Below are positions 3,528-4,168 of a stretch of DNA of 11,614 nt, in pieces. A program made the position numbers and the translations under genes. Position 1 is the stretch's first letter; the number at the start of each line of letters is the position of its first letter. The notes beneath the pieces are model-generated. The model had not been told where the DNA came from. It ran no database searches and worked only from the letters and a program-made list of their open reading frames with translations. This DNA comes from a bacterium (GTDB taxonomy: Bacteria > UBP15 > UBA6099 > DSWB01), in contig JAGUYV010000155.1 in the NCBI GenBank assembly GCA_020061125.1, positions 1 to 11,614 of the forward strand. Direction: 5' to 3'.

Positions 3528-4097
3528 TTACCTCCCGGGCGGTTTCTGTGAATGGTCGTCGGAGCGGATGAGCATGACGCTGTCCTCGCCGTCCACCTCG
3601 TCGAGGCGCACGAAGACCCATTCGGAGCGCGATGTGGGGATATTTTTTCCCACATAGTCGGGGCGGATGGGCAGTTCGCGGTGGCCGCGGTCCATGAGCA
3701 CGGCGAGCTGCACGAGCTTGGGGCGGCCCAGGTCCATGATGGCGTCGAGGGCGGCGCGGATGGTGCGGCCCGTGTAGATGACCTCGTCGGTGAGCACGAT
3801 GCGGCTGTCCTCGACATCGAAGGGGATGTCGGTAATGTGCACCGTGGGCTGGTGGGACAGGTGCGCGAGGTCGTCGCGGTACAGGGTGATGTCGAGCACG
3901 CCCACGGGCACCTCGACCCCCTCGATTTCCTTGATGAATGCGGCCAGGCGCCGGGCGATTGGCACGCCGCGCGTCTGAAGCCCCACCAGGGCCAGCTTTT
4001 CCGCGCCCTTGTTCTTTTCCAGAATTTCATGCGCGATGCGCAGCAGCACTCGCTTGATGCCCGCCGCATCCATGAGTTCCACGGGTCTGTCCGTCAT
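3528..4097 (-). CDS. pyrR: PyrR, bifunctional pyrimidine operon regulator / uracil phosphoribosyltransferase
   Basis: PyrR proteins bind a conserved hairpin in pyr leader RNA when UMP is high and often also convert uracil plus PRPP to UMP. The 189-residue product has the type I phosphoribosyltransferase fold: [14 protein letters not shown] near residues 38-51, DITLYRDDL at 69-77, and the PRPP loop [12 protein letters not shown] at 101-112, where the usual DD pair is Asp104-Glu105. I chose the ATG at 4097 because it follows a GGGGGCGG tract and overlaps the stop of an upstream small frame as ATGA. A TTG at 4109 would add four residues. It is first in the operon, ahead of pyrB. The leader contains a PyrR-site-like hairpin, so autoregulation is probable but inferred. 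Confidence 0.95.
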
Positions 4098-4168
4098 AGC
4101 CGCCCCCAAAATGAAACGGCTCCTCCGCGCGCGGAGAAGCCGTGAATTTTGCGTGCCGTCAGCGTCAT
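4094..4168 (-). CDS. Putative 24-residue leader peptide overlapping pyrR
   Basis: A short frame in the pyr leader starts at ATG 4168 behind a purine-rich GGAAAGGAAG (about 5 nt spacing) and ends in a TGA that overlaps the pyrR ATG as ATGA, the arrangement typical of translational coupling. It lies wholly inside the transcript predicted from the promoter at 4229-4257. A 26-nt palindrome (4117-4142) falls within it, so translation of the peptide would disrupt that hairpin. The sequence is not obviously pyrimidine-codon-biased and resembles no leader peptide I know. It could be fortuitous, as the frame is also open further upstream. Confidence 0.42.
4117..4142 (-). promoter_or_regulatory. Leader palindrome, possible attenuator hairpin upstream of pyrR
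   Basis: Read on the minus strand the 26 nt are self-complementary end to end: CGGCT, one T-G wobble, then CTCCGCG against CGCGGAG and AGCCG. The stem is followed by TTTCATTTT, a poor U-tract, and ends 19 nt before the pyrR ATG. It could be a weak terminator/attenuator or a translation-blocking hairpin. The complementarity is certain; the function is inferred. Confidence 0.45.

Follow-up and report, generated by a model that had tools for sequence, protein, structure and literature searches.

Textbook accounts mostly treat attenuation by PyrR as an RNA-only switch of Gram-positive bacteria, exemplified by the pyr attenuators of Bacillus subtilis (Rfam RF00515). For the pyr operon of Thermus strain ZO5 (pyrR-pyrB-bbc-pyrC), Van de Casteele et al. 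reportedly proposed in 1997 an attenuation by a translating ribosome, with no antiterminator, and in Mycobacterium smegmatis the pyr operon is said, after the work of Fields and Switzer in 2007, to be under translational repression by PyrR. In Escherichia coli pyrBI, which works without PyrR, UTP-dependent pausing is the signal and translation of a leader through the terminator prevents termination. Our literature search found no description of PyrR control through a leader peptide.

The pyr locus described here shares with the B. subtilis attenuators a PyrR hairpin, a terminator and possibly an antiterminator that overlaps the hairpin, but differs from them in a leader frame with a conserved start, in having one site instead of several and in an RF00515 score below the gathering threshold. 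With M. smegmatis it has in common a PyrR hairpin that masks a ribosome site; however, the site masked in M. smegmatis is the first gene's own, whereas here it serves a leader frame that encloses a terminator, and pyrR has its own ribosome-site-like GGGGGCGG. The model proposed below shares leader translation through the terminator with E. coli pyrBI, where the signal is a different one and there is no PyrR. Repeated codons for the amino acid under control, the mark of the trp, his and phe leader-peptide attenuators, are absent, the leader having no run for one amino acid beyond two Gly codons. Thermus ZO5 is reportedly alike in that the 3' strand of the hairpin is the leader ribosome site, the frame crosses the terminator into pyrR, and pyrR comes first. 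It differs in phylum and in an overlap of 11 nt, against a 4-nt ATGA here, and the Thermaceae have no antiterminator beyond chance whereas the phylum studied here possibly has one.

The window, by which we mean the whole stretch of 11,614 nt that was analysed (contig JAGUYV010000155.1 of assembly GCA_020061125.1, which is 79% complete), carries the following features of the pyr locus, given in the direction of transcription:

4229..4257, minus strand: sigma-70-type promoter, TTGACA (4257-4252), 17 nt, CATAAT (4234-4229), 11 of 12 consensus matches
4171..4212, minus strand: predicted PyrR-binding hairpin GGGATTCTTTTAATCCGGCACCGAGAGGCCGGAAAGGAAGACC, by Rfam RF00515 and our own covariance model
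4183..4193, minus strand: CCGAGAGGCCG, within the PyrR hairpin, which may pair as an antiterminator with the 5' arm of the terminator (4143-4132), pairing probability 0.64
4175..4181, minus strand: putative Shine-Dalgarno AAAGGAA of the leader, part of the PyrR hairpin 3' strand, at a position also used in relatives
4094..4168, minus strand: leader frame of 24 codons plus stop, ATGACGCTGACGGCACGCAAAATTCACGGCTTCTCCGCGCGCGGAGGAGCCGTTTCATTTTGGGGGCGGCTATGA, its stop overlapping the pyrR ATG (4097) by 4 nt as ATGA
4116..4143, minus strand: probable terminator hairpin inside the leader frame, 12 bp, about -21 kcal/mol, U-rich tail at 4115-4106
4100..4107, minus strand: G-rich, ribosome-site-like GGGGGCGG before the pyrR ATG, recognised by its sequence
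3528..4097, minus strand: pyrR (NCBIfam NF003549, 250.9 bits, cut-off 138)
2604..3521, minus strand: pyrB, aspartate carbamoyltransferase (NF002032, 392 bits)
1315..2592, minus strand: pyrC, dihydroorotase (TIGR00857, 392 bits)

The gene order is thus pyrR-pyrB-pyrC, with pyrR first, and the regulatory parts follow each other on the minus strand as promoter, PyrR hairpin, leader start, terminator hairpin within the leader frame and pyrR ATG. The promoter is near-consensus and was the one match of the scan against 0.2 expected, with transcription predicted to start at about 4222. The PyrR of the window scores above the NCBIfam equivalog cut-off, and its closest solved structure is 1ufr, the Thermus thermophilus protein. 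The DNA between the pyr promoter and the next gene upstream contains ATGAACGGGGT twice, as a short direct repeat, once at 4349 and once at 4383 (4349-4395 in all). That gene encodes a SWIB-domain protein (PF02201; 4818-5240, minus strand) with a Lys/Ala-rich, histone-like N-terminal tail, and beside it is a second protein made purely of Lys/Ala/Pro repeats (5261-5542, minus strand). Farther along are a FabK-like enoyl-ACP reductase or nitronate monooxygenase (6694-7671, plus strand; TIGR03151 at 304 bits, below the cut-off of 453) and tandem radical SAM proteins (8863-10263 and 10559-11614, minus strand), the first of which is nearest to HpnJ and BchE, far under both cut-offs.

The PyrR hairpin is filed under RF00515 provisionally. 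The family model matches 4211-4111 with 42 bits (E 0.004), short of its gathering score of 54 bits, in an alignment that is full-length (model positions 1-115). The features of the family are present, namely the purine-rich loop GAGAGG, the two-part stem and the UUUAA side bulge, followed by the terminator. The threshold appears to be a strict one, since sites of Thermus (L009, 47.5 bits), Nitrospinota (L017, 49.7) and Firmicutes (both sites of L037, 45.9 and 49.8) likewise score under 54 bits. Our own covariance model (R1) gives the hairpin 46.1 bits, a score to be read with the window being one of the model's training members, and this model found no second PyrR hairpin in the 79%-complete assembly. 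The pyr leader as a whole folds better than its own shuffles (z -3.6).

The first-pass annotation of this DNA had pointed to a 24-codon frame with a ribosome site that ends as ATGA on the pyrR start, and this is borne out to the nucleotide, the frame running from 4168 to 4094 with AAAGGAA before its ATG. The palindrome that it placed within the frame is there as well and is probably a terminator, but it measures 28 nt and not the 26 claimed: it reads ACGGCTTCTCCG-CGCG-CGGAGGAGCCGT, forms 12 pairs including one G-U, and is followed by TTCATTTTGG. An independent scan classed it as terminator-like, and it aligns with the terminator part of RF00515; the interruption of its U-rich tail (TTCATTTT) counts against the explanation that we favour. 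We also considered whether the palindrome could be the terminator of the upstream SWIB gene, which was ruled out since the promoter and the PyrR hairpin intervene. When the stretch between the hairpin and pyrR was shuffled, a frame reached pyrR in 8% of trials and ended with a 4- or 1-nt pyrR overlap in 2.5%. Because a single sequence could owe as much to luck, the case for the leader frame rests on its relatives.

Seven genomes of the window's phylum were compared, six of them with pyrR; in G005, from the same order as the window's genome, PyrR was not found, and this may be an assembly gap since the assembly is about 80% complete. In all six pyrR-bearing members the leader ATG stands 8 or 9 nt past the 3' strand of the hairpin. 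The leader frame of two of them (L002 and L004) passes the terminator and ends as TTGA on a pyrR TTG start that was set by eye, and that of a third (L006) also passes the terminator and stops 70 nt short of pyrR. L003 and L005 belong, with L002 and L004, to a related genus of which four members were compared, and their leader stop either immediately precedes the terminator or falls at it. Passage through the terminator and pyrR coupling are thus not kept without exception, even if a ribosome halted at that stop would still cover the terminator 5' arm. The 4-nt coupling is therefore kept in three of the six and the leader start in every one. Openness of the frame made no distinction within this phylum alone (4/6 for the leader frame, 5/6 for the frame shifted by +2).

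The wider set held 107 non-Firmicutes leaders, with known duplicates removed, and 35 Firmicutes leaders. In 82 of the 107 the hairpin 3' strand is followed by an ATG at a distance of 4-12 nt, with a peak at 7-9 nt, and a GTG occupies this position in 14; the Firmicutes have an ATG there in 10 of 35, which equals the scrambled-triplet background. The excess over the Firmicutes gives a Fisher p of 9e-7 (6e-4 with the phylogenetically diverse subset alone). Up to the terminator 5' arm the frame is open in 69 of 75 leaders, against 44 of 75 in the control frame, for which we used a shift of +2 and dropped the shift of +1, unusable because the ATGA closes it; the ATG and openness counts are both uncorrected for kinship and are inflated by related sequences. 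Hairpins whose tails are interrupted escaped the terminator finder; the window's own was among them and was entered by hand. Sequence and comparison together show the parts, their order and the conserved start and frame of the leader, and the comparative evidence places the predicted leader frame beyond chance.

The starting point for the Thermus group was one genome, with a PyrR that aligns to the 1ufr chain along its whole length (340 bits), from which the set was extended to the family of that genome. Every one of the 26 Thermus leaders that were measured has a frame that passes through the terminator and on into pyrR. Twenty-one of them, of 67, 73, 76 or 79 nt, use a single frame with a common 11-nt pyrR overlap, their length differences being multiples of 3 only, and the other five use another frame, open to pyrR overlaps of 22-25 nt. 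No third-position excess of change was found in the Thermus codons before the terminator (0.45, 0.16, 0.41 and 0.51, 0.42, 0.54), which suggests that the frame is selected and the peptide is not; peptide-level selection, as an arrest peptide or through codon sensing, is thus unlikely. Three expectations of the first-pass annotation meet their answer here. Its small frame is conserved among relatives, with the start and the reach to the terminator kept in the phylum and recurring in other phyla, but the synonymous-site bias to be looked for in it is missing from the Thermus codons. The arrangement, which the annotation did not know from described pyr operons, is not without precedent: it matches what was reportedly proposed for Thermus ZO5, and the layout occurs throughout Thermus, so that the window is not new in kind. 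As in the ZO5 type, its leader start follows the hairpin 3' strand within 4-12 nt and its frame is open through the terminator. The window most likely joins this proposed kind, its own features being the tighter 4-nt hand-over and the possible antiterminator.

We favour, with a probability of roughly 0.68, a PyrR-controlled attenuator in which the translated leader is the antitermination device, and infer for this locus leader translation, termination, binding of PyrR-UMP and reinitiation at pyrR. The polymerase would first make the PyrR hairpin, next the leader start and last the terminator. At low UMP, PyrR would be off the hairpin and a ribosome could take the AAAGGAA in the hairpin 3' strand, translate the 24 codons, cover the terminator and keep it open, letting transcription proceed into pyrR-pyrB-pyrC; on stopping at the ATGA, it could pass straight to pyrR. 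At high UMP, PyrR-UMP would clamp the hairpin and hide the ribosome site, the leader would go untranslated, the terminator would form and the coupling to pyrR would be lost. The sequence of the leader peptide would be irrelevant to this. In the window's phylum the GAGAGGCC stretch of the hairpin may in addition pair with the terminator 5' arm and so reinforce the switch. The first-pass annotation had already tied the PyrR hairpin, leader translation, the palindrome and pyrR expression together, and this remains the best-supported reading, with the qualifications that the ATGA coupling is found in only half of the phylum and that an antiterminator possibly acts alongside the ribosome.

To assess the antiterminator, we looked for pairing between the PyrR hairpin region and the terminator 5' arm at a stage when the 3' arm has yet to be transcribed. 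For the window the shuffled-arm p is 0.01, and 0.03 in a second version of the test. All six leaders of its phylum show such pairing (P 0.42-0.81; the mean is 0.66, where shuffled arms give 0.15), with a shuffled-arm p below 0.05 in five, and the pairing bases differ between families; in the Thermaceae, the Nitrospinota and the diverse set, arm pairing stayed near the shuffled level. A broader test gave 7.6 pairs against 2.0 expected, with three of the six below 0.05, and 8.9 against 3.9 in the Firmicutes, which served as the positive control. These results are suggestive of a Bacillus-like antiterminator in the window's phylum, beside the leader ribosome. A double lock is conceivable, if doubtful, in which a single hairpin would govern an RNA antiterminator and also the leader's ribosome site, and the leader ribosome would open the terminator and be passed to pyrR at the ATGA; the leader-mediated mode with hand-over would then be widespread outside the Firmicutes, and the leaderless antiterminator and purely translational forms possibly derived. 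It is unlikely that the control is by RNA only as in B. subtilis, where the antiterminator forms without PyrR and PyrR-UMP frees the terminator, with the leader frame incidental or secondary. The pairing of all six leaders, as in the Firmicutes and unlike the Thermaceae and other phyla, would agree with it; however, the more inclusive test leaves half of them under 0.05, the window's antiterminator nearly ties with the PyrR hairpin in energy, which of the two prevails hinging on where the 5' end is placed, and the conserved leader start and ATGA ending are left unexplained.

As for the hand-over, a 4- or 1-nt overlap with pyrR ends 9 of 35 leader frames in the diverse phyla (0.26 expected), which take in Omnitrophota, Rokubacteria, Zixibacteria, a Syntrophaceae genome and other phyla, 5 of 29 in Nitrospinota (0.21 expected) and 3 of the 5 that were scored from the window's phylum (0.14 expected); for seven of the leaders counted the pyrR start was assigned by eye, the automatic start picker having misassigned the starts of some Thermus leaders as well as of L002-L005, L061, L070 and L148. 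The 1-nt overlaps scored for three Thermus leaders (L118, L133 and L136) are artefacts of the same picker. The predicted ATGA hand-over recurs in independent lineages. The leader frame might also be an N-terminal extension of pyrR that an indel in the assembly has split off, an idea ruled out because the same ATGA ending occurs in many phyla. Nitrospinota leader frames mostly stop inside the terminator, without coupling. The leader peptides of two Omnitrophota (L079 and L075), VKIADFIILVYNGLNQR and VNIADFIILVYNGLNQKWLSPFHFI, are akin to each other and start with GTG; one leader of the pair stops inside the terminator and the other runs through.

Other layouts would suit translational control alone, in which PyrR would block the leader ribosome site, pyrR would be made solely via the ATGA hand-over and the hairpin would not terminate. 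In L018 the PyrR hairpin sits directly at the pyrR ATG, much as is reported for mycobacteria, and in two Chloroflexi (L062, 1931-2000, and L103, 1910-2001) the hairpin is followed by a GTG frame of 7-8 codons whose end overlaps pyrR as ATGA or GTGA; no terminator was found in either, and this is possibly a purely translational version. Together with the ATGA endings in so many phyla, these would fit such a scheme, but a strong hairpin followed by a U-rich tail occurs in this locus and in most relatives that have the leader frame, and the coupling is absent in half of the window's phylum, which makes it improbable for this locus.

That the leader frame is mere chance, an ATG after the hairpin in GC-rich sequence that stays open, is compatible with the shuffles of the window taken by themselves, but is very improbable given that start, spacing, open frame and overlap recur in independent phyla. 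Least credible of all is UTP-sensitive pausing as in E. coli pyrBI, without PyrR, in which a pause at U runs would let the leader ribosome catch up: a leader frame through the terminator is indeed the pyrBI layout, but no U run lies between the leader start and the terminator, and the PyrR hairpin covers the ribosome site.

The comparison suggests that the ribosome acting as antiterminator is the usual form of PyrR control outside the Firmicutes, to which many lineages appear to have added a 4-nt hand-over to pyrR, and many short leader peptides of this kind have likely been missed by annotation.
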